Source of the DNA: Sphingobacteriales bacterium TSM_CSS
GTDB taxonomy: Bacteria > Bacteroidota > Bacteroidia > Chitinophagales > UBA2359
Length of the DNA: 64,000 nucleotides
NCBI GenBank assembly: GCA_002212985.1
Contig: NBMY01000077.1
Location: 1-64,000, forward strand
Direction: 5' to 3'
The notes under the pieces were generated by a model. It did no database searches, was not told the origin of the DNA, and saw only the letters and a program-made list of their open reading frames with translations. Position 1 is the stretch's first letter. Each line of letters opens with the position of its first letter. A program made the translations under genes and the position numbers. Shown in pieces: positions 11,370 through 62,317 of the stretch.

Positions 11370-12326
11370 GTGATAAAGTACTACATTAAAGAAAAGCACG
11401 GCGTTCTGAAAGAGCTTGGCAAGCCCGAAAAAGGGGCTTGGATAAATGTGTACCCGCCTTATACACACGAGGAATTAAAGAAACTCAGCGATGAACTGGA
11501 TATTTCTACCGATTTTTTCATTGACTCACTCGATATTGATGAACGTTCAAGGTATGAACAGGAAGAGGGAGTACGCTTTATTGTGGTAAACATTCCCATA
11601 AAAAATGAAAATGAAGACGAAAACGGACACGAAGCCCTATATATTACCGCACCTGTGGGTATTGTGGAGGTAGATGATTATATTGTAACCATTTCGGCTT
11701 TTAAAAACTTGGTGGTTGACCATTTTCTCAATTCCGATGTAAAAAGTTTTCAAACCGGCGACCATAGCCTCTTCATCCTGCTGTTTTTTGAAAGAACAGT
11801 GCATTATTTTTTGCACTTTCTCAAAAATATGAACCATCAGCGCAATTTGTACGAAAAAGAACTTTATACCGCAGTACGCAATCAGGAGCTGTCTAAACTA
11901 ATGCGCCTGCAAAAAAGTCTGGTCTATTTTGTAACCACCCTGCGCGACAATGAACTTACCATGCTGCGTATGCAACGCACCGATTTTTTAAACATCAATG
12001 ACAGGGAAGAGGAAAAAGATTTTTTCTCCGATATTATGATTGATATGAATCAGGCACAGGAAATGGCTCAAATTTACACCAACATTCTCAATGCTACCAT
12101 GGATGCCTTTGCCTCTATTATATCAAACAACATGAACACCATTATGCAGCGGCTTACCTCCATTACCATTGTGTTAATGGTTCCAACTTTGGTAGCCAGT
12201 TTTTACGGCATGAATGTGCCCTTGTTAGGGCAGGAAAGCCCTCATGCTTTTGCAAGGGTAGTACTGTTTGCTGCCGTGCTTACCATAAGCATTGTCTGGT
12301 TTTTTATGCGCAAAAGGTTATTTTAA
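11370..12326 (+). CDS. corA: CorA family magnesium/divalent cation channel
   Basis: A 318-residue protein of the CorA family, pentameric channels for Mg2+ (sometimes Co2+ or Ni2+) in the inner membrane. The long N-terminal cytoplasmic domain (1-250) includes the acidic and helical stalk. Two C-terminal transmembrane segments follow, with the signature YGMN after the first (VLMVPTLVASFYGMN) and a basic tail MRKRLF. I chose the GTG at 11370 (MIKYYIKEKHG) because CorA homologues in the phylum start this way; a TTG two codons earlier is possible. Its last 9 bases overlap the end of the convergent PP2C-like gene. Confidence 0.92.
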   Translation: MIKYYIKEKHGVLKELGKPEKGAWINVYPPYTHEELKKLSDELDISTDFFIDSLDIDERSRYEQEEGVRFIVVNIPIKNENEDENGHEALYITAPVGIVEVDDYIVTISAFKNLVVDHFLNSDVKSFQTGDHSLFILLFFERTVHYFLHFLKNMNHQRNLYEKELYTAVRNQELSKLMRLQKSLVYFVTTLRDNELTMLRMQRTDFLNINDREEEKDFFSDIMIDMNQAQEMAQIYTNILNATMDAFASIISNNMNTIMQRLTSITIVLMVPTLVASFYGMNVPLLGQESPHAFARVVLFAAVLTISIVWFFMRKRLF

Positions 12327-13778
12327 GGTATCTTTCAACGAGCGAACATAAGTAGTTGCCTGTTTAATGGCATTGGCGGCAGAAAGCGTGTCTTCTTTAA
12401 GGCGGGTATTGCACTCATTTATTTTATCCAATATGCGCTTGTTAGTTTGGTCGTAAAACAAGGCTTCCAGCAGTGCATTTCGGGCGCTGGCATAATCTTT
12501 TACGGTATAGAGGCTATCGGCTTTTTTAAGACGAGTCTTTTTTTCGTCGTCAATCAGTTTTTTTATTTGGTTTACCTTGTTTTGAACATCGGAATTGTCG
12601 GTATCCATGGTATAGGCCCGTTCATAAATAGTTTTGGCTTCAAAAAATTCGCCTGCGTCAAAAAGCGAGTCGCCCTGAGTAACTATTATAGCCTGCCGCA
12701 TTTTTTGCAACATATATTGGGCAGTGCTCAGCGCTTCGGTATCAGATGTCTCAATAGACAGGGCTTTTTCAAGATCCGAAATAGCTTTGGTATAGTTGCC
12801 TTCACCGGCTAAAGCTTGTGCTTCGCTAATAAGGTTGTTAACCATCCGTTCGGGCTGGTTGCTAAAGTAGCGGTACAACAAAAAACTACTGGCCGTTAGC
12901 ACCAAAATGGCGGTAAGTACAATGCCGGCTTTCAGCATGGCATCGCGGCCAACTCCCATTGTTTTAGACTGACTGCTATGGTGAAACAAATCGGCATAAG
13001 AGGAAAGGTTGTTGTCGGCATGTTGCAAATTACCTTTTGCATTGGTCAAAACCGAGTTTTCTATTTGTACTACAAACAGTGCAGTATTGGTGGTTTCAAA
13101 CTCGGGGGTGCTTTGCAGCTTGGCAGCTATGCTTTGGTACAATGCCTGCCCATCGGTTGCATGAGTGCAAATTTGGGCAAGTTGCTCTTCGCCTGTGGCA
13201 GCAACAACAGTAGGCGTACAAAGCAGCAGCAAGTCGCCTGCCTGAATGTTGGTAATGGTAGAAACACTGGCCCAGGCCGGTTCGGTGCCGTTAATGCCGC
13301 GCGGAACGGTTATAACCTTGTCCTGCATCATCATATTGGCAACATGGTCTTCGGTTTGGTACAAAATTCTGCCCTGCCTTATATGGTATGCCCTGCAATT
13401 ACCCACCCAGGCTAAGGTAATACTGCCATCGGAGTTAAAATGCGAAAGCGCCAACACCCCATACACACCGGCAAGGCGCGGGTATTGGTTCAGGTATTTT
13501 TGTGCTTCACGCTCAGCCAGGCGCAGTGCATCATTCATCACAACCTGCCCCAAACGCTCGGTTTTAAGCCTTGTTGAACCGGTAAGTATGCGCACAAAGG
13601 TATTGTTGGCAATGGTAGCCATGTTGTGCGTATGCTCTTCCAACCCAATACCGGCGCTTACAATAAACAATCTATTGGCCGGGGTGGCTTCGTTTTGAGG
13701 CGGATATATATGATGATGACCGCTGCTTTTGTCTTGCGTATTATCTAAGGCATAAACAGCTTTTATTGTTGTATTCAT
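12318..13778 (-). CDS. PP2C-like (metal-ligand-deficient) membrane protein with TPR domain
   Basis: A 486-residue protein in three parts: a PP2C-like domain (about 1-240), one transmembrane segment (about 287-310, MLKAGIVLTAILVLTASSFLLY) and a TPR-like region (about 320-470). The fold markers of PPM phosphatases are present but each metal-binding aspartate is replaced: VADGMGG appears as VSAGIGL, VGDSRAY as VGNCRAY, LLCSDGL as LLCTPTV, and DNIT as TNTA. Catalysis by the usual two-metal mechanism therefore looks impossible, so this is best read as a pseudophosphatase that may bind phosphoproteins or sense a partner. The gene overlaps the corA stop tail-to-tail. A kinase partner is not nearby. 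The domain call rests on my alignment by eye. Confidence 0.8.
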   Translation of the reverse strand: MNTTIKAVYALDNTQDKSSGHHHIYPPQNEATPANRLFIVSAGIGLEEHTHNMATIANNTFVRILTGSTRLKTERLGQVVMNDALRLAEREAQKYLNQYPRLAGVYGVLALSHFNSDGSITLAWVGNCRAYHIRQGRILYQTEDHVANMMMQDKVITVPRGINGTEPAWASVSTITNIQAGDLLLLCTPTVVAATGEEQLAQICTHATDGQALYQSIAAKLQSTPEFETTNTALFVVQIENSVLTNAKGNLQHADNNLSSYADLFHHSSQSKTMGVGRDAMLKAGIVLTAILVLTASSFLLYRYFSNQPERMVNNLISEAQALAGEGNYTKAISDLEKALSIETSDTEALSTAQYMLQKMRQAIIVTQGDSLFDAGEFFEAKTIYERAYTMDTDNSDVQNKVNQIKKLIDDEKKTRLKKADSLYTVKDYASARNALLEALFYDQTNKRILDKINECNTRLKEDTLSAANAIKQATTYVRSLKDTLK

Positions 13779-13807: not shown

Positions 13808-13815
13808 CAAAAGTA
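13808..13815 (-). promoter_or_regulatory. Candidate -7 element for the PP2C-like gene
   Basis: The minus strand reads TACTTTTG (TAnnTTTG) 30 nt upstream of the ATG at 13778. The -33 element is unclear. Confidence 0.42.
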
Positions 13816-19574: not shown

Positions 19575-22484
19575 TCAGGTGTTGCGGGTTTTGCGTTTAA
19601 GCTGGTGCCAGCCGTAAAATGCCAGCACTGTGGCGGGCAACAGGCATAAAAGCCAAAAAACAAACGCATGTTGGGTGGGTATGGGTTGTGTGTTGCCCAG
19701 TTGCACAAAGGTTGCCCAATAAAAAGGGTAGGAGGTAAGACGGTCGGCAGAGGCGAGAAAAGCAAGTTTGGCTTCTTGCAAGGCAACATCTTTGTTTTTT
19801 TGCTGCATTAAATTCTGGTAAAAAGTTTGCATAATTTGCCGGGTACTGGCATCGGCTGCTTTCCATAAACTCATTACTATGCTGGGGCAGCCGGCATAAA
19901 TAAAGCCCCTCGACAGGCTCATAATTCCTTCGCCTTTCTGAACCTGTCCTTCTCCGGTGCTGCACGCACTCAACACTGCCAAATCGGCGTTCAGGTTCAT
20001 GGTGTAAAGCTCGTAGGTATTCAGTTCAGCTTCATCTGCGCTCGCGCCGGGAGGTTGGGTAAACAGCAGCTTTGAGTACATGGGGTTTTGGTCGTTTACC
20101 TCGCCGTGCATGGCTAAGTGTATAATTTTATACTTACCGGCCATGTTCTTAAAACGTTCTTTGGTGGCAGTTTGGTCTAAAAAAGCCTGGCCGCCGGTAA
20201 GCTGGGCAATTTGCGCTACTTCCTCTACAGCGCCTTGCAGTTGTGCCTGTGTATCCTGTGGCGGGTTGTTATTGCCCGGCTGCTGTATATATTGGGGAGC
20301 AAAACCGGCAAACAGTTTGGCGGCTGTTTGGTGGTGGGCAGCTGTTTGTTGCTCCAGCAGCAATGTTGCCGATGCACCGTAGCTTATGGCATAGCGCTGC
20401 AACAGGTACAGCGGTGCCAAGGTTCTGAAATCGGCACGGGTGCTGTCGGGGAGGGTTGGCAGCAGTATTTCAAAGGGAAGGTAACCCAGTTTTCCATCGG
20501 GCACAATGATGAGGCGGTTTATTCCTGCGGGCATTTGTGCCAAAGGCTGTTGCAGAAGGGTATTATACAGGCGGTGTGCACATTGTGTAAATACGGCAAA
20601 AGCCTGTTTTGTATTCCGTTGTACTGCACCGGGTTGCGAAAGCAGGGTGCGTATTGTATCGAGGTCTTGTTCAAAAGCAGGCGTTTTGTTCAATGTGTAC
20701 AGAACAGCAGTAGGGCGGGTTACCACTATGGCATAAATAGAGGAATCGGCGGTAAAATAGTTAATGAGAGCCGTATTTTCGTTGAGCAATTTACCCGATA
20801 TATCGGCAATGCCGGCTGTTTTGGCCTCAAATTTAAGCCGGTTGTATTGCGGGTACTGTTGTTCTATGAGTTGGGTAAGGCGGTTGCTTTTCCGGCGCAG
20901 GTCAAACAGTTTTTTATCGGTTAATTGCAAACTGTCATCAGGGGCTTGTTGCTGCTGCATTTCAAAATAATGCTGTTCTGTTTGTGCAAGGGTTTCGCGC
21001 AGTTGCCGGTCTTCTTCCAGCAGCTTTGGCGGCAGGTTGGAAAACAGGCGGGCTTCGTTGTTTTGAACACTTTCCAGCAAAACGGCAGCTTTGTACTGCT
21101 CGGCAAAAAGCAAAGCGGTATCTGCCATGTGCTGGTTGGGTTGATGGGCATATAGTTGTGTAGCAGCCCACATGGCACGTTCAAAGTTGGAATAGGTGAG
21201 GTTTGACAGTTTGAGTTTTGATAGTTCCGATGCATAACTGCGGCGCAAAAAATTAATATGTTTTGCGGCCAACCCGAAACAGGACAGCGCCCGGTGCAGC
21301 AGCACGGTATCGGGTTGATGCCGGTATAGTTGCAGCCAAACTTCGCCCTTTGATTGCAGAATATCGAAAAGCCAGGGGTCGGGTATAAAGTGTTTTTCCG
21401 ATGGGTTGGCGGTTGGCATCGTATCGTTAAAGAAAGGCAGTAGGGCAGTAAGGGCATTTTGGTAATATTGCAAAGCCTGTGCCGGCTGGCTAATATCGGC
21501 ATAAGCGCCGGCTATTCCTGCATAAATACGGGTAATATCGCGGTGTTTATCTCCGTAGAGTTGTTTGGCAATGTTAAGCGATTGGCGGTAACCTGCAATG
21601 GCCTGGTCGAAATTGCCCTGCTGCTGTTGCACCTGCGCCATAGAAAGATAGGCGGCAGATACATACTCATGCGTGTTTCCGTATTGGTGAATAAACAGTT
21701 GCAGCGCTTGTTGCAGGTAGCTGCCGGCTTTACCAAACTGCTGCTGCCCCTGGTATGAGGCGGCAATATTGGTAAACACCACCGCCCTGAAACCATCATC
21801 GGGTTTCAACAGTGCAAGGGCGCGGTTAAATTGTTCCAACGCTTTGTCAAAATCGTTCCAGTTTTGGTAAACAATTCCCAAATCGTTGTAGATACGGGCG
21901 GCTACTTCCACGTCGTTCAGTTGCAGGCGTATGCGCAGGGCTTCGCTCAGGTGGTCGGTAGCCTGCTGGTAATCCATGCGGCGGCCGTAAATGTTGCCAA
22001 TATTTTTTTGAAGGGTGGCTACGGTGGCATCTTCAACGTGGTGTATTTCAAAAATGGCAACCGCCTGTTGGTAGGCAATCATGGCGCTGTCGAATTTGCC
22101 CCATATATCGTAGGCGGTGCCCAACCGGGTAAGTACCCGGGCGGTAATGGTATCGGTAGCGCCAATTTCTGAAAGGGCAATTTGGGCGGCTTGTTGCATG
22201 TGCTGAACAGAAGCCTGAAAGTTGCGGGACGATTTATAAATTTCGCGCACTTTATTTATACAGTCAAACCATTGCTGCCAGTTTCGGGCTGTTTTGTAAC
22301 CGTTGGCAGCCTGTTGGAATAAGGCAATCGCGCTATCGGGCAAGTTTTGTTTTTGCAGCCTATTGGCTGTTTCATATAAGCTGTCGGTTGGGTCAATGCC
22401 TTGCGGCGGGGCAAACACAGTAAAAGCCAGCAGCAATGCCACTGCTGCCCCTGTACACAATATGGCTGCCGGTTTAAGTAACAA
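19575..22484 (-). CDS. TPR repeat protein with C-terminal CHAT peptidase domain
   Basis: A 969-residue protein. An N-terminal hydrophobic segment (1-25) is followed by many tetratricopeptide repeats (about 30-400), a helical linker, and a CHAT domain (about 650-930) related to caspases. The catalytic dyad is present: H in IIHLAMHGEVND and C in LAVLSACSTGEG, followed by GEGIMSLSRGFIYAGCPSIVMSLW. A final transmembrane segment (FVFWLLCLLPATVLAFYGW) and a basic tail (KRKTRN) suggest membrane anchoring. CHAT proteins are proteases in some immune and regulatory systems. No effector, gasdermin or CRISPR genes are nearby, so the target is unknown. The start is TTG at 22484; no in-frame ATG precedes the hydrophobic segment. 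Confidence 0.9.
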   Translation of the reverse strand: MLLKPAAILCTGAAVALLLAFTVFAPPQGIDPTDSLYETANRLQKQNLPDSAIALFQQAANGYKTARNWQQWFDCINKVREIYKSSRNFQASVQHMQQAAQIALSEIGATDTITARVLTRLGTAYDIWGKFDSAMIAYQQAVAIFEIHHVEDATVATLQKNIGNIYGRRMDYQQATDHLSEALRIRLQLNDVEVAARIYNDLGIVYQNWNDFDKALEQFNRALALLKPDDGFRAVVFTNIAASYQGQQQFGKAGSYLQQALQLFIHQYGNTHEYVSAAYLSMAQVQQQQGNFDQAIAGYRQSLNIAKQLYGDKHRDITRIYAGIAGAYADISQPAQALQYYQNALTALLPFFNDTMPTANPSEKHFIPDPWLFDILQSKGEVWLQLYRHQPDTVLLHRALSCFGLAAKHINFLRRSYASELSKLKLSNLTYSNFERAMWAATQLYAHQPNQHMADTALLFAEQYKAAVLLESVQNNEARLFSNLPPKLLEEDRQLRETLAQTEQHYFEMQQQQAPDDSLQLTDKKLFDLRRKSNRLTQLIEQQYPQYNRLKFEAKTAGIADISGKLLNENTALINYFTADSSIYAIVVTRPTAVLYTLNKTPAFEQDLDTIRTLLSQPGAVQRNTKQAFAVFTQCAHRLYNTLLQQPLAQMPAGINRLIIVPDGKLGYLPFEILLPTLPDSTRADFRTLAPLYLLQRYAISYGASATLLLEQQTAAHHQTAAKLFAGFAPQYIQQPGNNNPPQDTQAQLQGAVEEVAQIAQLTGGQAFLDQTATKERFKNMAGKYKIIHLAMHGEVNDQNPMYSKLLFTQPPGASADEAELNTYELYTMNLNADLAVLSACSTGEGQVQKGEGIMSLSRGFIYAGCPSIVMSLWKAADASTRQIMQTFYQNLMQQKNKDVALQEAKLAFLASADRLTSYPFYWATFVQLGNTQPIPTQHAFVFWLLCLLPATVLAFYGWHQLKRKTRNT

Positions 22485-48540: not shown

Positions 48541-48658
48541 CTTTAAAAAAATGCTCTTTACGGTTGTAAAGGTTGGCAATCGACTTGAAAACAATCAACC
48601 TGTTTGTTATCAAAACCCGAAACAACAAGTAAAGAGCGTAAATTATAGCAATTCAATT

Positions 48659-51600
48659 ATGTGCAATAGTAAAAAAATGATTGAGTTTATAATGCACTCA
48701 TCTATACATAAAATACCCATCGGCCTTGCAATTGTATTGCTTGGATTTGCCTTGCTGCTTCCTGCACAAAAGTTAAATGCACAGTGTGCAAACGATAACG
48801 CATTTCAGGGAACGGCGGGCGATTTTTGTGCTTTAAACATCACCTCTTCAACGGCTGCTTCTGCAAGGGCAGGTTGGTATATTGACTGGCCGGTTTCTAC
48901 AGGGCATACTTACCGGTTTTCTCATTGTGGCGGCAGTTTTGATTCAAGAATTACGCTCTATAATGGCACCAGTACAACTTCTTTAGCATTTAACGATGAT
49001 AACGGCGTTGCTTGTACTGGAGTAGCCGCATCATTACAATGGACAGCAACATATACAGGTAATGTTCGTGTATTGACTGATCAATGGACAAGCGGTGATG
49101 CTTGTTCGCCTTCAGGTGCATTTATTGCTCTAGCTGGTTCAATTGTTAGTTTCAAAGCCGGTACCAACTTCTCTACCCCAATTGCGGTTGGTACTTTATC
49201 GGGCTGTGCTTCATACAGCAATACACAAGATAATGGCACCTGCTTTTTCAATGATTTCGGTCAAGCCAGCGGCGATATTTATTACCAGTTTGTATTAAAT
49301 AATACCGCTACGGTAAATCTTTCACACTGCGGCTCTGGTTTCGATACTTATATGTATCTGCTCAACAGCGGCGGTGGTACAATTACCTCAAACGATGATA
49401 GCGGACCCTTGTGTGCTTCAACAACTTCCTCTATTCAAATTTCACTCGGTGCCGGCACTTACTATCTGGTCTCAGAAGGATTTAGCTCCAATACCGGCAA
49501 CATCAATACTCAAATTTCCATTCAGCCTCCAACCGGCGGCAGTATTTCAGGCAGCGCTTCTGCGGTTTGCCCCGGCCAAACCGGCACTACCTATACCATT
49601 AGCGGGGTAAGTAATGCAACAGACTACTTATGGTCTGTTCCCGCCGGCGCAACCATTACTGCAGGGCAGGGTACTACCTCTATTACCGTTACATGGGGCA
49701 CTACGGGTGGCAACGTAACCTGCACACCCCGCACCTATGGCGGAACCTGTAACGGAACCGCAGTAAGTTTTGCCGTTACCATGCAAACCAACTCCACCGC
49801 TCCATCGGGCATTACCGGCAACACTACCATTTGTGCAGGTGGCAGCACCACACTCACCGTTTCGGGCGGCAGTTTGGGTACCGGTGCAGGCTGGTTTTGG
49901 TACAGCGGCAGTTGCGGCGGCACGTTGGTTGCTTCCAATACATCAAGTGTATCGGTAGCTCCAGGCTCTACTACTACCTACTTTGTACGGGCACAGGGCA
50001 CTTGTAATACTACCACTTGCGCCAGTGTAACGGTTTCGGTTGTAGCAGACCCATCCATTTCCGTATCGGGCGCCACTACTGTTTGTTATAACGGAACAGC
50101 CACGCTATCCGCTTCGCCAGCCAACGGTACGGGAACCTGCACCATTCAGTGGCAAAGCAGCCCCAATAACAGCACCTGGACAAATATCAGCGGTGCAAAC
50201 AGCAGTACCTATACTACGCCGGCGCTAACTTCCTCTACCTGGTATAGGGCTACCTACAGTTGTACAGGAAGCGGTTGCGATGCAGCAACATCGGGTAGCA
50301 TACTGGTAACGGTAAATTATCCTACTGGTGCTCAGTTTGGTAATCCTATTGTGGTTGGTACGCTATCGGGTTGTGCTTCTTATAGCAACACACAAAATAA
50401 TAGTACCACAAACTGTTTCCTCAATGACTTTGGCCAAGCCAGTGATGATATTTACTACCAGTTTACGTTAAACAATACGGCAACTGTAAATATTTCGCAT
50501 TGTGGTTCTGCCGTAGGTGATACTTATATAAGCCTGTTGAACAGCGGTGGCGGAATTATCCAACAGGTTGATGACAACGGACCCATATGTTCGGGTTTAC
50601 AGGCTTCTATACAAGCTACTCTTGGTGCAGGCACTTACTATGTAGTATCCGAAGGTTATAGCACAAATGCCGGTGATATTACCACCCAAATTTCCATACA
50701 GGCTCCTACGGGCGGCAGTATAACGGGCAACTCGGCAGTTTGCCCCAGCCAGGCGGGTACTACTTATACCATTAGCGGCGTTAATTTTGCAACAGATTAC
50801 CAGTGGTCTGTTCCAGCGGGCGCAACCATTACTGCAGGTCAGGGTACTACCTCTATTACCGTTACATGGGGCAGCACAGGCGGCAACGTAACCTGTACGC
50901 CACGCACTTATGGCGGAGCATGCAGCGGAACGGCGGTGAATTTTGCCGTTACCATGCAAACCACCTCAAGTGCACCAACAGGAGTAAGCGGTGCAGCTAC
51001 TATTTGTACCGGTGGCAGTGCTACGCTCACCGTATCGGGCGGCAGTTTAGGTACCGGCGCAGGCTGGTTTTGGTACAGCGGCAGTTGCGGCGGCACGTTG
51101 GTGGCTTCCAATACGTCCAGTATAACAGTTTCACCGGGTTCAACCACTACCTATTTTGTAAGGGCCGAAGGTACTTGTAATACCACCACTTGCGCCAGTG
51201 CAACGGTTACCGTTGTAGCCGATCCTGTTGCTCCAACAGCCACCAAATCGCCTAATGTGACAACTGTTTGCGCTGGCGCAACCTTAACCTTAACCGGCGT
51301 AACCGATAACGGGGGCGGCACCGGCACCTGCAACATAGAGTACAGCGCCAACGGCGGCGCATGGACTACCACATTGCCCAGTCTTACCGCAACCGTAGGA
51401 ACCAACAGCATTGCAGTGCGCAAAAACTGCAACGGTTCAGGTTGTGATATTTCACCTGTTAATACCTACTCATGGACGGTTGTAGCCGATCCGAGCGCTT
51501 CAACACCATCATTCACCAACAGCAGCATTTGCGTTGGCGGCAGCACGGTAGTAAGCACTACTGCTTCAGGTGGTACGGGCAGCTATACCTACCAATGGCA

Positions 51601-54600
51601 ATATTTCAATGGCAGCACTTGGGGAAGCGTGGTAAACGGTACACCTGCGGGATCTGCCTATACCAATGCCACTACAGCAAACTTGACCATTGCAGGTATC
51701 AGCGCTGCGGGCAGCTACCAATACCGTTGTGTTGTAGGCGATACCGGTTCGGGTTGCGATGCTGTTAACAGTGCGGCTTCCACGTTAACCGTTGTAGCCG
51801 ATCCTATAGCGCAAACCATTTCACCGTCAGTAGCCAATGGCACAACGCTTTGTGTGGGCGGTACGGTATCTGCTACGTTTTCGGGTGGTTCGGGAGGTAC
51901 CGGCACTGTAACCGATACGTATGAATTTAGCACCAACAGCGGCGGCAGTTGGAGTGCCTATACGCCCGGAAGCACCATTACCGCCACAACCGGCATGTTG
52001 GGTACCAATACTATTCAGATTAGAACACGCCGCACCGCTACCGGCAACGGTTGCGATGCCAGTGCATACAATACGGTTTCCTATTCGGTTAACCAGTTAG
52101 ACTATGCTAATCTTCAATTCCCCGCTTCTGCTACAATATGCCAGGGCAATAGTTTTACTGCCTACGGGCAAGTGTACGAACTGGGTGTAACCGAAGCTGC
52201 AGGAGCAGGCGCCGGCATTACTGCCCAAATTGGATATAATACCGCTAATACCGACCCCTCAACCTGGACTAACTGGTCTTCAACTACCTTTAACATACAA
52301 TTGGGTAATAATGATGAATATGCCGGAACACTTTCGGGCTTGGCTGTAGGTACTTATTATTATACGTTCCGTTATTCGCTCAACGGCTGCCCCTACCAGT
52401 ATGGCGGTTTCAGCGGCGGTTTCTGGAACGGCACTACCAATGTAAACGGCGTACTTACGGTAAACCCCAACCATACCATTACGCTCACTTCTGCCGTTGG
52501 TACCAATAACCAAACCGTTTGCCAGAATGTTGCCATTACCAACATTACCTATTCGGTTGGCGGCGGCGCAACCGGAGCATCTGTTTCAGGTTTGCCAAGC
52601 GGCGTAACGGGTTCGTTCAGTGCAGGCGTGTTTACCATCAGCGGCGCCCCAACTGCTGCCGGTGGCACTTACAACTACACTGTAACCACTTCGGGAAATA
52701 GTTGTACCGTTGCAACCGCCACCGGAACCATTATTGTAAAAGAACTGCTCGATTATGCCAACCTACAGTTCCCCGCAACTGCCACAATTTGTCAGGGCGG
52801 TTCCGTAACTGTTTTTGGGCAGGTTTTCGAACCGGGTGTAACGCCCGGTGCAGGCGCACAAGGACCCGGTATTACAGCAGAACTTGGTTACAGTACCTCT
52901 AACTCCAATCCCAACACATGGACAAACTGGCAAACTGCCACTTTTAACTCCGGCGGAGGCGGCGCCAATAATGATGAGTATCAGGCTAACTTAGGCGCTG
53001 CACTTACACCGGGTACCTACTACTATGCCTACCGCTATACTCTTAACGGTTGCCAGTATCAATACGGCGGCTACAGCGGCAGCGGCGGCGGTTTCTGGAA
53101 TGGCAGCACCAATATAAGCGGGGTATTAACCATTGTAGCCGACCCCACCGCCCCCACCAACACGCCTACCCCTGCTGCGGGTGCGGTTTGCGTAGGTGCA
53201 GTTTTAAGCGTTACTGCATCGGGGAGTACCGGTGGCACAGGCAATTGTACATATCAATACGCCATTGACCCCGGTACAGGTACTTTTGGTGCATTTGGGG
53301 CAACAAATTCTGTAACAGCTTCCAGTGTTGGCAACGGCACTTACCGAATTAAATCGAGATACAGTTGCGATGGAACCGGCTGCGATGTTTCAGCCGAAAC
53401 TACTACCACATGGACAGTTGTATCAGACCCGACGGTAACCATAAGCGGCGCTGCCGATGTATGCTTTGGCGGTAGTGTAACGCTTACTGCAAACGTAAGC
53501 GGCGGCTCAGGCACGAGCAGTTACCAATGGCGTCGCAACAGCACCAATATATCGGGGGCTACTTCATCAACCTATACCACCGATAACACGCTTGTAGCAG
53601 GTAGTTACAGTTACGATGTGATTGTTACACAAACTGGCAGCGGTTGTTCAAATACGGCCACTGCGGTATCTGCCAATGTAGTAGCCGACCCCGCCCTGTC
53701 TGCCCCAACCTTAACCAATGCATCGATATGTATTGGAGGTAGTACCGCTATCAGCACAAATGCCACAGGTGGCACGGGAACATTTAATTATCAATGGCAA
53801 TATTCTGCAAATGGCAGTACAGGTTGGGCAAACGTAGCAACAGGTACACCAACTGCATATACCTATACCAATGCCACTACATCAACTTTAAATATAGCCA
53901 CAACCAATAGCGCATCGCCAGCAACGGTTTATTACCGGTGCCTGTTAAGCAGCAATACCCCGGCCGGCGCCGGGTGCGATGCCACATCGGCCAATGCCGT
54001 ACTAACTCTGGTAGCCGACCCTGTATCACCTACTTCATCCACTAAATCACCCAATGCCACGTCAGTCTGTGAAGGCTCAGCCCTTACCATTAGCTCGCCA
54101 ACCGGCGGCAGTGCCGGCGTAGGTTGTGTTTTGGAATACAGGTTTACCCAAGATGGTGGCACAACTTTTTCAACACCTTCAACAAGTATTCCGGTACTAA
54201 CTGCCAATTTGGGCGGTTATGATGCCATACAAGCTCGGTATAACAGTTGTTTAACGGGTTGCGATCAACCATCTGCATGGGTTACAATAGGACAATGGAC
54301 GGTTATAGCCGACCCTGCTATCACTGCAACCACCCAACCTCCCAACCCGATTTGCCCGGGCGGTAGCGGAACCTTTACCGTTTCAGCCACAGGTGGAACC
54401 GATGGAACGGGGGCAACAGCACGAACCCAACAATGGCAATATTCGGCTAATGGTACTACGGGTTGGGCAAATGTAATTGATGGTACTCCTACAGGTGTTA
54501 CTTACGGTGGTACCGGGACAGCTACTTCTTTAGTGGCTAGTACCAATAACAGTACCACACTTCCTGGCACCTATTATTATCAGGTAATTGTGGGTGCTAC

Positions 54601-57600
54601 TGGCGATAACTGTGCATCGGTAACATCCGGCGTATTATCTATGACTGTAGTAGCTGAGGCATCTCCCCCAACTGCCACTCAATCGCCAAGTGCCACTACG
54701 GTTTGTGTTGGAGCCAGCTTAACCCTCATAAATCCGGTATTGGGCAGTGGCGGTGCAGGTACCCAAACATTCGAATACAGTACTACAAGTGCCAGTTCTG
54801 GGTTTAGTACTACCGTCCCAACCCTTACCCCTTCTTCGGCAGGCTCGTATAGTATTTGGATACGCACTAGCCCAACAGGATCGGGTTGCGGAATTTCAAC
54901 AGCCACGCAATACACATGGACCGTAGTTGCCGACCCAACTATATCTACTCAACCAATTACTACCCAAACAGTATGTATTGGCGGCACGCCTGCCAATTTG
55001 ACTGTTGTGGCAACAGGAGGCACGCCGTCTTTAACCTACCAATGGTACAGCAATACTACTAACAGCAACAGCGGCGGTACAAGTTTAGGCAGTACTAACG
55101 GAGCCCAAACGGCAACTTATACGCCCCCAACTGCATCTGCCGGAACGGTTTATTACTATTGTGTAGTCAGCTCATCGGGCGATGGTTGCACATCGGTTTC
55201 GAGTAATACGGCAACCGTTATTGTAGCTGATTATCCTGTAACCACAGGTACTACCATCTGTCAAGGGGGCAGCGGAACTATTGCGGTTACCAGTTCTTGT
55301 TCCGGAGGGGCCGTGACCAGCCTTACAGGTGCATGGAATGCAGCCACCGACCCCACAGCCAACCGACCAATATTAGGTACCAATTCTGGATCTTGTGCTT
55401 TCACTACATCAGGTTCTGTGCGCAATTATGTAGCCACACCTTTTCAAGTATCGGTTACGGGTAATTATATTTTTGAAATGGTAAATAATGCCACTTATGA
55501 TGGTGAAGGCTATATCGTATCAGCAGATTTTACACCCGGATTTTGTCCCGGTTCGGGCGGTACCGGAACTTGGTATAGAAACGACTCCGATAGCAGCCCT
55601 TCGGGTGATGAACCACGGATAGGTAATGCCGCTGATGGCGGAGCAGGGGTTTTGACACTTACTGCCGGTGTAAATTACATGTTAGTTTCTACAACTTATG
55701 GCTCAACAGGTACTGTAACTGCATCATTTACATGGACTATCACGCCGCCGTCGGGTGGGGGTATTCTTACCGATGTTGTTCAATGGTACACTGCCGCATC
55801 TGGTGGTTCACCCATTGGCACAGGTACGCCTTTTAACCCGGTTGGTGTGGCTGGCTCGGGTTTGGCAAATACCAATACACCCGGTACCTATACTTTTTAT
55901 GCTGCCTGTTCGGGCAGCCCTAACTGCCGTACAGCAGCTACTTTTGTGATAAACACCTCTGCCACAGCTAATGCAGGCACTGCCCAAACGATATGTGCTG
56001 GCGGTAGTGTAACTTTAGCAGGCTCGATAGGTGGGAGTGCCACAACAAGTACATGGAGTGCGCCAAGCGGCACTTTTTCCGATGCCACATCTTTAACCTC
56101 AACCTATACGCCAAGCATAACAAGTGGCACTGTAACGCTTACCTTAACCACCAACGACCCCGACGGCGCAGGCCCTTGTACGGCAGCTACCTCAACGGTA
56201 GATATTACGGTTATTGCCCCACCTGTTACCACAGGAGTTACAATTTGCCAAGGGGGTAGTGGAACATTGAGTTCATCTACTACTTGCCCCAATACCTTTG
56301 TTAATTCGGGCACAACCATATCAGGCACATGGACAGCCGGTACAGACCCCGTTGCAAGAAGACCCATATCATCTCCTATGACCAATACTAATACTTGTTC
56401 TTTTGATGCATCTATTACCAGAAATTATGTGGCTACATCTTTTCAGGTAAGTGTAACAGGCAATTATGTGTTTGAAATGAATAATGACTCTAATTTTGAT
56501 GGTATGGGTTACATAGTAACAGGAGCATTTGTTCCCGGAACTTGTCCCGGTGCAGGAACATGGGTTAGGGGTGATCAGGATGACGGTGTAGCCGGCAACG
56601 AACCCCGATTAGGTGCAAGCGGAGTAGGGGCGGGCGTTATGACCTTAACAGTAGGTACAACCTATACGCTTATATCAACTACATGGGGAGCATCAAGTGG
56701 TACTTATAGTGGAACATTTGCATGGACAATTACACCGCCTTCGGGAGGGCAAATTATGTTACAGGGTGCTGGGCAGATAGAATGGTACACGGCTGCATCG
56801 GGAGGCTCGCCCATTGGTACAGGTACGCCTTTTAACCCGGTAGGTGTGGCTGGTTCGGGATTAGCAAATACCAACACACCCGGTACTTATACTTATTATG
56901 CCGCTTGTTCGGCTAATCCCACTTGCCGTACAGCCACGACTTTTGTAATTAATCAGGCCGCAACTGCCAATGCAGGCAGTCCCCAAACGGTATGCGCAGG
57001 TGGTACGGTAACATTGGCGGGCAGCATAGGAGGCAGCGCTACAAGCAGCACATGGAGTGCGCCAAGCGGCACATTTTCCAATGCCAGTTCTTTAACCTCC
57101 ACCTATACGCCAAGCATAACAAGCGGCACAGTTACCCTAACCTTAACCACCAACGACCCCGACGGGGCCGGACCTTGTACAGCAGCTACCTCTGTGGTGG
57201 TAATCACAGTAACGCCCACCAACACGGTGAGCTCAGCATCCAGTACGCCCACTTTGTGCATCAACACCGCCTTAACCCCCATCACGCACACCACCACGGG
57301 CGCTACGGGCATCGGTTCTCCCACAGGTTTGCCCTCGGGTGTTACGGCAAGTTTTGCAAGCAACACTATTACCATCAGCGGCACACCTACGGCATCGGGC
57401 ACTTTCAGCTACAGCATACCCTTAACCGGCGGCTGCGGCAGCGTGAGTGCCACGGGTACCATCACCGTAACGCCGAATAACACGGTGAGTGCGGCATCCA
57501 GTACGCCCACGCTGTGCATCAACACCGCTTTAACTCCCATCACGCATACCACCACGGGCGCTACGGGCATCGGTTCTCCCACAGGATTACCCTCCGGCGT

Positions 57601-60600
57601 TACGGCAAGTTTTGCGAGCAACACCATTACCATCAGCGGTACGCCTACGGCATCGGGCACGTTCAGCTACAGCATACCCTTAACCGGCGGCTGCGGCTCG
57701 GTGAACGCAACGGGCACCATCACCGTAACGCCGAACAACACGGTCAGCGCGGCATCCAGTACGCTCACATTGTGCATCAACAGCGCCTTAACCCCCATCA
57801 CGCACACCACCACGGGCGCTACGGGCATAGGTTCTCCTACGGGCTTACCCTCCGGCGTTACGGCAAGTTTTGCAAGCAACACCATCACCATCAGCGGCAC
57901 ACCAACAGCATCGGGCACGTTTAACTACAGCATCCCCTTAACCGGCGGCTGTGGCAGTGTGAGCGCCACGGGTACCATAACGGTTAATCCCGATAACACG
58001 GTGAGTGCGGCTTCCAGCACCCCCACGCTGTGCATCAACACCGCCTTAACCCCCATCACGCATACCACCACAGGCGCTACGGGCATCGGTTCTCCTACAG
58101 GTTTGCCCTCGGGTGTTACGGCAAGTTTTGCCGGCAACACCATTACCATCAGCGGCACACCTACGGCGTCGGGCACGTTCAGCTACAGCATACCCTTAAC
58201 CGGCGGCTGCGGCTCGGTGAACGCCACGGGTACGATTACGGTGTCTTCTACTCCCACGGGTGCACAAATCTCCAATCCCATAGTTGTTGGTACGCTTAAC
58301 GGTTGCGCCACCTATGCCGACACGCAGGACAACAGTCCTTCAAATTGTTTTCAGAACAACTACGGTCAACCCAGCGATGATATATATTACCAATTTACCC
58401 TTGCCTATCCGGCTACGGTAAATATTTCGCTTTGCGGTTCAACCATTTACGACTCCTTCCTGAGTTTGCTGAACAGCAGTGGCGGCTTTATTCAGTTTAA
58501 TGACGACAATGGGCCCTTATGTACCGGTTCTAATGCTTCTATCAGAATTTCGCTGGCTGCCGGCACCTATTATGTTGTTTCCGAAGGTTATGACAATAAC
58601 GCAGGCAGTATCAATACCCAGATTTCCATTCAGGTTCCCACGGGCGGAACCATATCGGGGCCCACTGCGGTTTGTCCCAATTCTTCGGGCATAACCTATT
58701 CCATTGCCGGCGTTAGTTATGCCACCGATTATTTGTGGACAGTTCCGGCAGGCGCTACTATTACTGCCGGTCAGGGCACTGCAACTGTTACGGTAAACTG
58801 GGGAAGTTCAGGTGGCAACATCACCTGCACACCGCGCACAAACGGGGGCACCTGTAGCGGAACTGCGGTTAGTTATGCCGTAACCATGCAAACCAATTCA
58901 ACAGATCCGACAGGTATAACCGGCTCAACCATTATTTGCAACGGTTCGGGTACTACCCTTACGGTTGCCGGCGGCAGTTTGGGAACCGGCGCCAGTTGGT
59001 ATTGGTACAGCGGCAGTTGCGGGGGCACTCCTGTTGGAACAGGAAACTCGGTAAGTGTATCGCCTGCAACAACTACTACTTATTATGTTCGGGCAGAAGG
59101 CACCTGCAATACAACCGGCTGTGCCTTTGTAACCGTTACGGTAGATGAGGTAAACACTATAACTCTTTCATCGGGTAGCAACACCCAAACCGTTTGTGAG
59201 TATTCGCCTATTACCGACGTTGTATATACCATAACCGGCGCAACCGGTGCATCGGTAAGCGGGCTGCCTTCGGGAGTAACCGGCACGTATAGTGCTGGCA
59301 CCTTTACCATTAGCGGCACACCCACAGCATCTGGCGTTTACAATTACACGGTTACTACAAGCGGCAATAGTTGTCCGCCTGCAACAGCAACCGGAACCAT
59401 TACTGTAAACAGCCTTATTGATTGGGCTAATTTGCAGCATCCGCCATCGGGTACTGTATGTTATGGCGCTAATTTTACGGTATATGGGCAGGTATATGAA
59501 CCTGGTGTAACGCCCGGAACCGGTATTCAGGGAGCCGGTATAGATGCCGAGTTTGGTTACAGCACATCCAACACCAACCCGTCGGGATGGACCAACTGGG
59601 CTGCTGCTACTTTTAATGCTGCCGGCGGCGGAACCAATAATGATGAGTATATGTACAACTTTATTGCACCGACATCGGGTACATATTACTATGCTTTCCG
59701 CTATCGTTTAAACGGATGTGAATGGCAATACGGCGGCTACAGCGGCAGCGGTGGCGGATTTTGGAATGGCAGCACCTATGTTAGCGGGGTATTAACTGTG
59801 TTGGAACCAGTAAACTATGGAACAGTTGCCAACGGCGATGAGGCATTGTGCAGTGGCGACGACCCGTCAAACATTACCTTATCTGCTGCGCCATCGGGCG
59901 GTGCGGGCACATTTACCTATCAATGGTATTATCAGGACGGAATCGTAACTTGCCCTACCGGAACCAATACCACAGGCTGGACACTTATAAGCGGAGCCAC
60001 CGGCAGCAGTTACGACCCGCCCGCTGGGTTAACCGTATCCAGAACTTATGCTTTATTAGTAGATGCAACCGGCACACCCGATTGCGGCCCGGCAACATGG
60101 GCTAGCGGTTGCCGCAAAGTAACGGTAAATGTATGTTGTGTAGCTCCCGATTTGCTGAGCTATGCCGTGAACCCCGCAAGTTATTGCGAAAATGCACCTA
60201 TTACGCCGAATCTGGCTACTGTGAGTGGTTCCACCCCGATGACGTTCTCTGTCAGCCCGTCCCTACCTGCAGGATTAAGTTTAAATACCACTACCGGCGA
60301 AATTACGGGAACACCAACCGTTCCGACAACTGCCGCAGATTATACCATTACCGCTACCAATGCTTGTGGTTTTACCACAGTTGCCTTAAATATTGCCATC
60401 AATTCATTATCGGTTCCGCCAACCGGAGCAACCGGTACAACCACCATTTGCGAGGGCAACAGCACTACGCTAACCGTTAGCGGCGGTTTTGCCGGTACCG
60501 GTGCTGTAGCACAATGGTTTACCGGATCCTGTGGCGGCACTTCCGTTGGCACGGGCAATTCCATAACTGTTTCGCCCACCGTAACCACCACCTATTATGT

Positions 60601-62317
60601 AAGATACAGCGGTATTTGCAATACCACTTCCTGCGGAAGTGTAACGGTAACGGTAAATACACTTTCTATTGCACCTACTAACATAGATGGTACTACTACA
60701 ATTTGTGCCGGCAATAATACGACATTAACGGTTAGCGGAGGATACTTAGGTACCGATGCAATAATTGAATGGTTCACAGGTTCATGCGGCGGTACTGCCG
60801 CCGGTACGGGTAGTTCCATTAACGTTTCTCCTTCGGTTACTACTACTTATTATGTTCGCTACAATGGAGTGTGCAACACCACTTCCTGCATTTCGCAAGA
60901 AGTTACAGTCAATCCGTTGCCGCAAGGAAGTCTTACTGCTAACGGGCCTTTCTGCGGAACAGACGGCGGAGCCGGAATGCTGACCTTTACCGCTACTGCC
61001 GGGGCAGATTCCTTGTCTCTTTTATTGCAAGACCAAGATGGTGTGATTTATAATTTTGATGGCAACTCTTATCCAAAAGTAGCTAGCGGAGTTCCATTTA
61101 ATGCACCCGTTACACCTATTACCACTACAACTACCTTTACCATCAATGCCATATTAGATGCCAACGGTTGCTTCCGAAATAGTGGAATAACCGGGCCAAC
61201 GGCATCTATTGTTATCAATGATCCTGCAACCGTAGAAGCCGGCGGGCCCGATTCTGCTTGTCAATCGGCAACGCCAGCCCCCATTACTCTTAGTGGAGCA
61301 AGTGTGGGTGGTGGTGCAACCACCGGAGCATGGAGTATTACTTTCGGAACCGGTACCTTAAGCAGTACCGCTCAAACCGCAAATCCAGAAACTGTTACCT
61401 TTACTCCCGATGCTAACTTTAGTGGTACCGTAACTCTTACCTTAACCACCAATGACCCCGACGGCGCCGGTCCCTGCTTAGCTGCTACCGATACCAGAGT
61501 CATAACCGTTCATCGTTCTCCCACTGTTTCGGCAAGTAATACTAGTCCTGTTTGTGTTGGTGAAAGTATCAACCTTTCAGCCAACTTTACTCCAAACGGT
61601 ACAAGTACCACTGCAACTGCATGGAGTTGGAGCGGACCCAACAGTTTCAGTTCAACTGCACAAAATCCGCCTGCGTTTACAGCTTCTCTGGCTTCGGCAG
61701 GTACTTATACGGTAACCGTTACTGACAATAACGGTTGTACCAATTCAGCACAAACTACGGTTGTGGTAAACGCATTGCCGGTATGCTCGGTATCTGGTGC
61801 AACAACTGTATGTCCTTCATCAACCGGAAACGTATATACAGCTACCGCAGGTATGAGTACTTATGCATGGAGTATAAGCGGCAGTGGCTCAATTTTTGGA
61901 GCCAATAATGGTCCATCCGTGTCAATTGATGCAGGTTCGGCTTGTAACAGCTCCTTTACCTTATCTGTTACTATTACCGATGGTAATGGTTGTACCGCTT
62001 CTTGTAATTATATAGTGAATGTAAATGACACAACCGCTCCGGCAATCAGCGGCACCTTAACCGCCATCAATCAGGAAGGCTGTTCAGCATCGGATGCCCC
62101 AGCCGCGACCAATACTTTGGCATATTTAACGGGCAATGGGTTAACGATAACGGATGCCTGCGGCACCGGCAACCTGACGGTGACGAGCAGCGATGGAACG
62201 CCAACTGGCAGCTGTCCATGGTCGATTATTCGCACCTACACGGTAACGGATGCCTGCGGCAACAGCAGCACGGCACAACAGACCATTACGGTAGATGATA
62301 CTCGCTCCGACGATTAG
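48659..62317 (+). CDS. Giant modular secreted surface protein (frame ends at a probable frameshift)
   Basis: A 4552-residue reading frame. The signal peptide is within the first 45 residues (IPIGLAIVLLGFALLLPAQ). I chose the ATG at 48659; 48677 and 48692 are also possible, and an upstream frame from 48551 is unlikely. Modules in order: N-terminal PPC-like domain; [PPC-PKD-like-Ig-like] at about 49155-50050 and 50320-51220; Ig-like and 'GQVYEPGVT' domains at 52096-53140; more Ig-like units; a 329-residue module twice (55241-57214); four 86-residue putative-Ig repeats (57221-58252); [PPC-PKD-Ig] again (58255-59140); putative-Ig plus 'GQVYEPGVT' (59150-59800); Ig/PKD-like units to the end. No sorting domain is reached because the frame stops at TAG 62315. 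The frame on the other side is described separately. Likely an adhesin exported by T9SS. Confidence 0.9.
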   Translation: MCNSKKMIEFIMHSSIHKIPIGLAIVLLGFALLLPAQKLNAQCANDNAFQGTAGDFCALNITSSTAASARAGWYIDWPVSTGHTYRFSHCGGSFDSRITLYNGTSTTSLAFNDDNGVACTGVAASLQWTATYTGNVRVLTDQWTSGDACSPSGAFIALAGSIVSFKAGTNFSTPIAVGTLSGCASYSNTQDNGTCFFNDFGQASGDIYYQFVLNNTATVNLSHCGSGFDTYMYLLNSGGGTITSNDDSGPLCASTTSSIQISLGAGTYYLVSEGFSSNTGNINTQISIQPPTGGSISGSASAVCPGQTGTTYTISGVSNATDYLWSVPAGATITAGQGTTSITVTWGTTGGNVTCTPRTYGGTCNGTAVSFAVTMQTNSTAPSGITGNTTICAGGSTTLTVSGGSLGTGAGWFWYSGSCGGTLVASNTSSVSVAPGSTTTYFVRAQGTCNTTTCASVTVSVVADPSISVSGATTVCYNGTATLSASPANGTGTCTIQWQSSPNNSTWTNISGANSSTYTTPALTSSTWYRATYSCTGSGCDAATSGSILVTVNYPTGAQFGNPIVVGTLSGCASYSNTQNNSTTNCFLNDFGQASDDIYYQFTLNNTATVNISHCGSAVGDTYISLLNSGGGIIQQVDDNGPICSGLQASIQATLGAGTYYVVSEGYSTNAGDITTQISIQAPTGGSITGNSAVCPSQAGTTYTISGVNFATDYQWSVPAGATITAGQGTTSITVTWGSTGGNVTCTPRTYGGACSGTAVNFAVTMQTTSSAPTGVSGAATICTGGSATLTVSGGSLGTGAGWFWYSGSCGGTLVASNTSSITVSPGSTTTYFVRAEGTCNTTTCASATVTVVADPVAPTATKSPNVTTVCAGATLTLTGVTDNGGGTGTCNIEYSANGGAWTTTLPSLTATVGTNSIAVRKNCNGSGCDISPVNTYSWTVVADPSASTPSFTNSSICVGGSTVVSTTASGGTGSYTYQWQYFNGSTWGSVVNGTPAGSAYTNATTANLTIAGISAAGSYQYRCVVGDTGSGCDAVNSAASTLTVVADPIAQTISPSVANGTTLCVGGTVSATFSGGSGGTGTVTDTYEFSTNSGGSWSAYTPGSTITATTGMLGTNTIQIRTRRTATGNGCDASAYNTVSYSVNQLDYANLQFPASATICQGNSFTAYGQVYELGVTEAAGAGAGITAQIGYNTANTDPSTWTNWSSTTFNIQLGNNDEYAGTLSGLAVGTYYYTFRYSLNGCPYQYGGFSGGFWNGTTNVNGVLTVNPNHTITLTSAVGTNNQTVCQNVAITNITYSVGGGATGASVSGLPSGVTGSFSAGVFTISGAPTAAGGTYNYTVTTSGNSCTVATATGTIIVKELLDYANLQFPATATICQGGSVTVFGQVFEPGVTPGAGAQGPGITAELGYSTSNSNPNTWTNWQTATFNSGGGGANNDEYQANLGAALTPGTYYYAYRYTLNGCQYQYGGYSGSGGGFWNGSTNISGVLTIVADPTAPTNTPTPAAGAVCVGAVLSVTASGSTGGTGNCTYQYAIDPGTGTFGAFGATNSVTASSVGNGTYRIKSRYSCDGTGCDVSAETTTTWTVVSDPTVTISGAADVCFGGSVTLTANVSGGSGTSSYQWRRNSTNISGATSSTYTTDNTLVAGSYSYDVIVTQTGSGCSNTATAVSANVVADPALSAPTLTNASICIGGSTAISTNATGGTGTFNYQWQYSANGSTGWANVATGTPTAYTYTNATTSTLNIATTNSASPATVYYRCLLSSNTPAGAGCDATSANAVLTLVADPVSPTSSTKSPNATSVCEGSALTISSPTGGSAGVGCVLEYRFTQDGGTTFSTPSTSIPVLTANLGGYDAIQARYNSCLTGCDQPSAWVTIGQWTVIADPAITATTQPPNPICPGGSGTFTVSATGGTDGTGATARTQQWQYSANGTTGWANVIDGTPTGVTYGGTGTATSLVASTNNSTTLPGTYYYQVIVGATGDNCASVTSGVLSMTVVAEASPPTATQSPSATTVCVGASLTLINPVLGSGGAGTQTFEYSTTSASSGFSTTVPTLTPSSAGSYSIWIRTSPTGSGCGISTATQYTWTVVADPTISTQPITTQTVCIGGTPANLTVVATGGTPSLTYQWYSNTTNSNSGGTSLGSTNGAQTATYTPPTASAGTVYYYCVVSSSGDGCTSVSSNTATVIVADYPVTTGTTICQGGSGTIAVTSSCSGGAVTSLTGAWNAATDPTANRPILGTNSGSCAFTTSGSVRNYVATPFQVSVTGNYIFEMVNNATYDGEGYIVSADFTPGFCPGSGGTGTWYRNDSDSSPSGDEPRIGNAADGGAGVLTLTAGVNYMLVSTTYGSTGTVTASFTWTITPPSGGGILTDVVQWYTAASGGSPIGTGTPFNPVGVAGSGLANTNTPGTYTFYAACSGSPNCRTAATFVINTSATANAGTAQTICAGGSVTLAGSIGGSATTSTWSAPSGTFSDATSLTSTYTPSITSGTVTLTLTTNDPDGAGPCTAATSTVDITVIAPPVTTGVTICQGGSGTLSSSTTCPNTFVNSGTTISGTWTAGTDPVARRPISSPMTNTNTCSFDASITRNYVATSFQVSVTGNYVFEMNNDSNFDGMGYIVTGAFVPGTCPGAGTWVRGDQDDGVAGNEPRLGASGVGAGVMTLTVGTTYTLISTTWGASSGTYSGTFAWTITPPSGGQIMLQGAGQIEWYTAASGGSPIGTGTPFNPVGVAGSGLANTNTPGTYTYYAACSANPTCRTATTFVINQAATANAGSPQTVCAGGTVTLAGSIGGSATSSTWSAPSGTFSNASSLTSTYTPSITSGTVTLTLTTNDPDGAGPCTAATSVVVITVTPTNTVSSASSTPTLCINTALTPITHTTTGATGIGSPTGLPSGVTASFASNTITISGTPTASGTFSYSIPLTGGCGSVSATGTITVTPNNTVSAASSTPTLCINTALTPITHTTTGATGIGSPTGLPSGVTASFASNTITISGTPTASGTFSYSIPLTGGCGSVNATGTITVTPNNTVSAASSTLTLCINSALTPITHTTTGATGIGSPTGLPSGVTASFASNTITISGTPTASGTFNYSIPLTGGCGSVSATGTITVNPDNTVSAASSTPTLCINTALTPITHTTTGATGIGSPTGLPSGVTASFAGNTITISGTPTASGTFSYSIPLTGGCGSVNATGTITVSSTPTGAQISNPIVVGTLNGCATYADTQDNSPSNCFQNNYGQPSDDIYYQFTLAYPATVNISLCGSTIYDSFLSLLNSSGGFIQFNDDNGPLCTGSNASIRISLAAGTYYVVSEGYDNNAGSINTQISIQVPTGGTISGPTAVCPNSSGITYSIAGVSYATDYLWTVPAGATITAGQGTATVTVNWGSSGGNITCTPRTNGGTCSGTAVSYAVTMQTNSTDPTGITGSTIICNGSGTTLTVAGGSLGTGASWYWYSGSCGGTPVGTGNSVSVSPATTTTYYVRAEGTCNTTGCAFVTVTVDEVNTITLSSGSNTQTVCEYSPITDVVYTITGATGASVSGLPSGVTGTYSAGTFTISGTPTASGVYNYTVTTSGNSCPPATATGTITVNSLIDWANLQHPPSGTVCYGANFTVYGQVYEPGVTPGTGIQGAGIDAEFGYSTSNTNPSGWTNWAAATFNAAGGGTNNDEYMYNFIAPTSGTYYYAFRYRLNGCEWQYGGYSGSGGGFWNGSTYVSGVLTVLEPVNYGTVANGDEALCSGDDPSNITLSAAPSGGAGTFTYQWYYQDGIVTCPTGTNTTGWTLISGATGSSYDPPAGLTVSRTYALLVDATGTPDCGPATWASGCRKVTVNVCCVAPDLLSYAVNPASYCENAPITPNLATVSGSTPMTFSVSPSLPAGLSLNTTTGEITGTPTVPTTAADYTITATNACGFTTVALNIAINSLSVPPTGATGTTTICEGNSTTLTVSGGFAGTGAVAQWFTGSCGGTSVGTGNSITVSPTVTTTYYVRYSGICNTTSCGSVTVTVNTLSIAPTNIDGTTTICAGNNTTLTVSGGYLGTDAIIEWFTGSCGGTAAGTGSSINVSPSVTTTYYVRYNGVCNTTSCISQEVTVNPLPQGSLTANGPFCGTDGGAGMLTFTATAGADSLSLLLQDQDGVIYNFDGNSYPKVASGVPFNAPVTPITTTTTFTINAILDANGCFRNSGITGPTASIVINDPATVEAGGPDSACQSATPAPITLSGASVGGGATTGAWSITFGTGTLSSTAQTANPETVTFTPDANFSGTVTLTLTTNDPDGAGPCLAATDTRVITVHRSPTVSASNTSPVCVGESINLSANFTPNGTSTTATAWSWSGPNSFSSTAQNPPAFTASLASAGTYTVTVTDNNGCTNSAQTTVVVNALPVCSVSGATTVCPSSTGNVYTATAGMSTYAWSISGSGSIFGANNGPSVSIDAGSACNSSFTLSVTITDGNGCTASCNYIVNVNDTTAPAISGTLTAINQEGCSASDAPAATNTLAYLTGNGLTITDACGTGNLTVTSSDGTPTGSCPWSIIRTYTVTDACGNSSTAQQTITVDDTRSDD
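55241..57214 (+). repeat. Tandem 987-bp (329-residue) module, two copies
   Basis: The marker accacagg...ATTTGCCAAGGGGG (or close variant) starts at 55241 and 56228, 987 bp apart. Each copy has the order TICQGGSGT; NYVAT.FQVSVTGNY; EPR.G; TITPPSGG; WYTAASGGSPIGTGTPFNPVG; AGTAQT or AGSPQT; TTNDPDGAGPCTAATS. The second half of each copy is more conserved than the first. Confidence 0.86.
57221..58252 (+). repeat. Four tandem 258-bp repeats (86 residues, putative-Ig domains)
   Basis: aacacggt(g/c)ag recurs at 57221, 57479, 57737 and 57995, exactly 258 bp apart. Units are nearly identical at DNA level and encode TLCIN(T/S)ALTPITHTTTGATG then GSPTGLPSGVTASFA.N, TISGTPTASGTF and GGCGSV(S/N)ATGTITV. 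Recent tandem duplication is the simplest reading. Long antisense open frames here are by-products of the repeats. Confidence 0.94.

Follow-up and report, generated by a model that had tools for sequence, protein, structure and literature searches.

The 64-kb stretch of DNA analysed here (the window; source genome G000) contains a minus-strand gene for a protein with a PPM/PP2C-like phosphatase domain in which residues of the active site appear to be exchanged. The question raised by this locus is whether its product, the window protein, is an enzyme, has taken on a role of another kind, or is encoded by a gene that is being lost.

Architecture and descent of the window protein

The frame extends over 12318..13778 of the minus strand, starts with an ATG at 13778, ends with a stop codon at 12318-12320, and comprises 486 codons. 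Three parts can be discerned. The first is the PPM-like domain (residues 1-245, 13044..13778, minus strand), which was delimited by profile and fold searches. It is followed by a single transmembrane (TM) helix in a Kyte-Doolittle scan (residues 284-302, 12873..12929, minus strand); the same scan yielded one TM helix in all 15 members of the pseudo-PPM family described below. The third part is a domain of three TPRs (residues 309-486, 12321..12854, minus strand), based on Pfam TPR_2, predicted helical repeats and TPR folds in the PDB. TPR_2 (PF07719) reached 38.3 bits with a cut-off of 27. AlphaFold models were built from an alignment of two sequences, the window protein and its orthologue L032. 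The full-length model, in which the TPR helices 309-485 have pLDDT values of about 70-88, was used for the TPRs only; modelling of the PPM part gave a result of low quality (pLDDT 49.5). The preliminary description of this DNA had already reported an intact frame of 486 residues and a TM helix joined to TPRs, and both observations held. A PPM domain, a single TM helix and a further domain, a layout like that of PstP, were found in 15/15 family members.

The best family match of the PPM domain was Stp1 (NF033484; 35 bits, E 1e-8). The window protein did not reach the curated cut-offs, with 30.8 of 230 bits for NF033484 and 16.5 of 20.3 bits for PF00481. Other family members did pass the cut-off of 24 for PF13672 (L037 37.6, L045 25.8, L036 24.9). 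For comparison, 40 PPM proteins from the taxonomic family and order of the source, 15 of the pseudo-PPM family and 25 of active type, were aligned with MAFFT; this set does not hold all PPMs of these genomes, and a later PF13672 search gave further ones. An hhalign comparison of the 15 family members with 19 of the 25 active-type proteins gave a probability of 100 and an E value of 3e-68 over 237 columns. A PDB profile search returned chains with the PPM fold (best E 9e-19), and when the low-confidence PPM-domain model was used for a fold search, all of the first 50 matches were structures of the PPM fold (best Z 11.4). By this profile and fold similarity, the window protein is a PPM by descent, yet the two features tested for active PPMs are both absent: it has 0/5 Asp ligands, and the phosphate-binding Arg is replaced (K17).

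The source assembly is 86.9% complete (173 contigs), and the genomes used for comparison are likewise drafts, many of them incomplete. An orthologue in G002 (L003/L032) is 91% identical to the window protein, and a relative in G001 (L004) 51%. Among named relatives the closest, with 90% identity, is a 'Sphingobacteriales bacterium TSM_CSM' contig. A gene of the family adjoins dapF and corA in five genomes of two genera (G000, G001, G002, G013, G017), and neither a kinase gene nor an active PPM gene is adjacent to the gene of the window protein. Elsewhere in the window, 19575-22484 (minus strand) encodes a protein of 969 aa that combines a CHAT (caspase-like) domain with TPRs and has a relative in the corresponding stretch of G002, and a single open frame of 4588 codons extends over 48551-62317 (plus strand).

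Graded loss of the active site

Ligand columns were numbered after L033, an active-type PPM paralogue in G000. In this numbering R17, D22, D42, D125, D201 and D240 are kept in 25/25 active-type proteins, and the window protein keeps none of the six (R17K, D22H, D42A, D125N, D201P, D240T); the MAFFT alignment and the hhalign profile-profile alignments agree on the placement of the ligand columns. In the window protein itself the replacements, all encoded on the minus strand, are K17 at the column of the phosphate-binding Arg (13728..13730), H22 at the motif-1 Asp (13713..13715, by alignment), and, in both alignments, A42 at the DGxGG Asp (13653..13655), N127 at the GDSR Asp (13398..13400) and T230 at the DN Asp (13089..13091). 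P189 (13212..13214) occupies the column of the SDG Asp, which is present in 25/25 active-type and 0/15 family proteins; for the Arg the numbers are the same.

In the preliminary description four motifs had been quoted, and all four are borne out: VSAGIGL (A42), VGNCRAY (N127), LLCTPTV (P189) and TNTA (T230). The claim of four replaced ligand Asp is correct according to the two alignments, but incomplete, as the losses of the motif-1 Asp (H22) and of the Arg (K17) had been missed. The wording 'all four metal ligands' needs to be corrected, because the GDSR Asp is a ligand of the third-metal type and not of the two core metals. We take R20, D38, D118 and D191 of PstP to be the equivalents of R17, D42, D125 and D201, based on the motifs. 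In PstP these are described as conserved active-site residues, mutation of which reduces function (PMC13129536), and a review states that a PPM becomes inactive when the Arg or any one of the metal ligands is missing (PMC13358185).

The region of the flap is shortened as well (residues 146-182, 13233..13343, minus strand): from the His of the DH motif to SDG, the span that holds the flap, there are 46-47 residues in 15/15 family members vs. 56-60 in the 25 active-type proteins. Several other residues of the fold are kept in the family, i.e., R129 of the GDSR motif (15/15), D144 (14/15), H145 (15/15) and G43 (15/15). The counterpart of the latter in SpoIIE, G629, binds the M2 metal by its carbonyl according to PMC5468089. 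The retained fold together with R129, D144 and H145 could be taken to mean that the old active-site groove holds phosphoproteins without cleaving them, and a phosphopeptide reader had indeed been proposed. This is disfavoured because the phosphate-binding Arg, present in 25/25 active-type proteins, is gone from all 15 family members; the metals that bridge the phosphate are lost too, and the flap stretch is about 10-14 residues shorter in 15/15. We regard such a reader as improbable.

A cluster of histidines (H21-H23, H49, H51; 13710-13718 and 13626-13634, minus strand) lies near the old metal site and is largely restricted to the window clade. The PPM alignments revealed no metal ligands at other positions, and the cluster leaves room for a metal site of a different kind. 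It could be imagined that H22, H23, H49 and H51 replace the Asp residues and bind zinc or another metal, so that the protein would be an enzyme. H23 and H49 occur in the rows of the window protein, G002 and G001, H22 and H51 in two of these three, and PHLPP2, itself a pseudophosphatase, has one Zn bound at M2; yet PHLPP2 is reported in the same source to be inactive even with metal (PMC12002173). In the remaining 12 rows of the family His is absent from these positions, except for a motif-1 His in L046, and the phosphate-binding Arg is lost also in the proteins with the cluster. A rebuilt enzyme is thus very unlikely.

The taxonomic family of the source is represented by 20 genomes, and the 15 proteins of the pseudo-PPM family are distributed over 11 of them. 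The SDG Asp is replaced in all 15 (Q in seven, P in six, E and S in one each), and the phosphate-binding Arg is kept in 0/15. The other Asp residues were lost to different extents: motif 1 is kept in 6/15, DGxGG in 6/15, GDSR in 4/15 and DN in 4/15. The maximum in the family, three of the five Asp, was found in G007, G001b, G002b and G002c, L037 being a protein with three, and none is left in the window protein and its relatives in G002, G001, G003 and G010. By alignment, the window protein is among the most degraded members. The family lengths range from about 490 to 932 aa, and the long members have additional TPRs and a C-terminal part. In G001 and G002 a second family paralogue lies next to the gene of a ribosomal protein; the G000 assembly has neither the paralogue nor this flanking gene, so that the lack of the paralogue in G000 may be only apparent.

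In a tree based on all PPM columns the 15 family rows form one group (support 100/100). After removal of eight stretches (ligands, flap, signature; 128 columns left) the family is split into two groups, and a single group was found in 30% of 200 bootstrap trees. When only ligand and flap columns were removed (200 left; two long rows, L024 and L061, omitted), two groups were again obtained, because L026, an active-type protein with a very long branch, falls inside the family. A single group was seen in 10% of these bootstrap trees and was not rejected (p-AU 0.474); the branch with the other 22 active-type rows is supported with 98/99. Separate support for one origin comes from the TM-TPR part, since its full length was found in the taxonomic family only: among 396 order-level genomes all 11 holders belong to it, a twelfth match (G283) being a partial TPR match only. 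At the class level 15 of the other 294 genomes drawn match, over part of the TPRs only. Two scans of viral contigs for further relatives yielded one distant match and then none.

Selection and a motif gained on the putative switch helix

Comparison with the 91%-identical G002 orthologue gave a dN/dS (NG86) of 0.066 when the entire gene was used; taken separately, the PPM part has 0.08 and the TM-TPR part 0.048. The values of seven neighbouring genes range from 0.012 to 0.139, with 0.115 for dapF. The gene of the window protein is under strong purifying selection. The earlier statement that it looks selected rather than decayed is therefore supported, as its value is no worse than that of dapF and the family has 15 members. 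The window clade has no ligand left and is without the C-terminal half that its long relatives in syntenic position have (G013, G017), which might be expected of a gene in decay. Decay is refuted by the dN/dS; the relatives with 91% and 51% identity have an open frame, and an upstream octamer is conserved, so that this reading is hardly credible. The octamer, TACTTTTG (13808..13815, minus strand), is located 37 nt upstream of the ATG. It was found 35-40 nt before the start in G000, G002, G001 and G003, i.e., in 4 of the 14 upstream rows examined (for L037 and L038 the start used is not at an ATG), with 0.10 occurrences expected per 150 nt. It resembles the Bacteroidota -7 element, TAnnTTTG.

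The family has also acquired a signature, GQxxxNxALRxxER (residues 77-90, 13509..13550, minus strand), which was recognized by conservation and a helix in the model. R86, E89 and R90 are present in 15/15 members, N82 in 14/15, and G77 and Q78 in 13/15 each. The columns conserved in the family and not in active-type proteins include R86, R90 and K220 (15/15) and N82, N115 and S171 (14/15). The signature is situated on helix 74-98 of the PPM-domain model (pLDDT 49.5), which by its order in the fold would correspond to the switch helix alpha2. Switch helices alpha1-alpha2 are described for SpoIIE and other PPMs, and RssB is named in the same source as a PPM that employs the switch while being no phosphatase (PMC5468089). 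This gained motif on the putative switch helix, as compared with RssB, is the main ground for reading the protein as a binding module.

Constraint is strongest in the TM-TPR part (0.048 vs. 0.08 for the PPM part) and the neighbours, dapF and corA, are housekeeping genes. Both would fit a structural anchor, in which the TPRs work as an envelope scaffold, the dead PPM domain does no more than plug the cytosolic side or help in oligomerisation, and no link to kinases exists. But the PPM part is itself constrained, the switch-helix motif is invariant in 15/15, and the PPM part is always kept, whereas the window protein lacks the extra TPR and C-terminal parts of the long members. A mere anchor thus appears rather unlikely.

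Taken together, the sequence data define the window protein as a PPM of the Stp/PstP type that has lost all Asp ligands and the phosphate-binding Arg, carries a TM helix and TPRs, and is kept by selection. As the fold was kept, the chemistry was lost stepwise and a new conserved patch arose, it is probably a signalling protein and not an enzyme. On balance, we favour a signalling pseudophosphatase that would act by protein binding in genomes with many Hanks-type kinases. The signalling scaffold suggested before is a plausible candidate role.

In this favoured reading of a binding protein, the PPM domain would be cytosolic and the TPRs would be outside the inner membrane, in analogy to PstP and the transmembrane Hanks kinases. 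The outer TPRs might sense, or assemble with, a partner in the envelope; the signal would be relayed to the PPM fold, and the switch helix would bind another protein of the cell, for which a Ser/Thr kinase or an active PPM is the likeliest candidate. The activity of this partner could be raised or lowered without any chemistry, much as RssB binds its partners through a dead PPM domain. More specifically, though as a tentative proposal only, the family might represent a class of bacterial transmembrane pseudophosphatases in which the TPR sensor drives the switch helix and its new Arg/Glu/Arg face docks onto Hanks-type kinases or their active phosphatase, regulating them without catalysis.

Kinase setting and comparison with known systems

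Pkinase frames of at least 100 bits were tallied manually, each frame once. In the 11 genomes that carry the family the numbers are 5, 6, 6, 5, 6, 3, 3, 9, 7, 6 and 6, and in the nine genomes without it 1, 2, 0, 0, 1, 3, 1, 2 and 1 (Mann-Whitney p 1.2e-5). The strong kinases of G000, five in number, are encoded on C137 (two), C28, C110 and C171. Most family-bearing genomes cluster on trees of active-type proteins, so that the association may go back to one evolutionary event and the p value should not be read as independent support.

A link to kinases via a shared outer domain was also considered. The G000 kinase L132 has a TM helix, TPR parts and an FGE-sulfatase domain, and the match to the TM-TPR profile of the family in this genome has E 1e-8. 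L063 (5836-9210, plus strand, G010:C160), a Ser/Thr kinase of 1125 aa with a TM helix, TPRs and a sub-threshold Sel1 repeat, matches with its TM-TPR part with E 2.4e-19, and in total 4 of the 12 kinase-region proteins tested gave a match. The best non-family match in the generic TPR background reached E 1.5e-17, and this link is therefore rated as weak.

G000 has an active-type PPM-TM protein (L033 on C39) beside a VWA gene. Small PPMs of another class (L159 on G000:C2, L161 in G002, L163 in G007) are situated beside a VWA-like frame, with kinase-like frames on the same contigs; the G000:C2 type is among the PPMs added by the later PF13672 search and was classed by eye. In G013 (C64), an FHA-ABC transporter protein, an active-type PPM-TM protein and a Ser/Thr kinase adjoin each other (L050, 1907-8033).

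With its fold retained, its catalytic motifs lost and its gene maintained, the window protein has the properties of a PPM pseudophosphatase. In the literature searched such proteins are mostly eukaryotic, with the exception of RssB. The living members at several stages of active-site emptying, together with a gained motif on a regulatory helix, would make the order of chemistry loss and binding gain testable. In addition, annotation based on the fold would label some of these proteins phosphatases.

PstP has a cytosolic PPM domain followed by a TM helix and an outer part, a layout to which that of the window protein is likened. The window protein shares the PPM fold with PstP and Stp1, the latter being its best family match, and differs by the absence of the Asp ligands and the phosphate Arg, by the shortened flap and by TPRs as outer domain. 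L033 (G000:C39) has the same fold and PPM-TM layout, but retains all ligands, the Arg and the full flap and has no TPR domain of this type. PP2C proteins with TPRs are already in print (PMC12088040). TAB1 and PHLPP2 of animals likewise have a PPM domain with lost metal ligands (PMC12002173, PMC13358185), but they keep one metal site, in contrast to 0/5 Asp here, and architecture and kingdom differ. A functional parallel is offered by RssB, the E. coli adaptor of ClpXP, another PPM-fold protein of bacterial origin that lacks the active-site residues and acts by binding other proteins (PMC7226468, PMC5468089); its PPM domain binds sigma S and ClpX according to the former report. RssB is a soluble response regulator, whereas the window protein is a membrane protein of the Stp type with TPRs. 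RssB has been published before, and the literature searched contained no Stp-type transmembrane pseudophosphatase from bacteria; within this scope, a membrane-anchored, TPR-bearing bacterial family of the Stp type, in which stages of the loss are preserved, is new.
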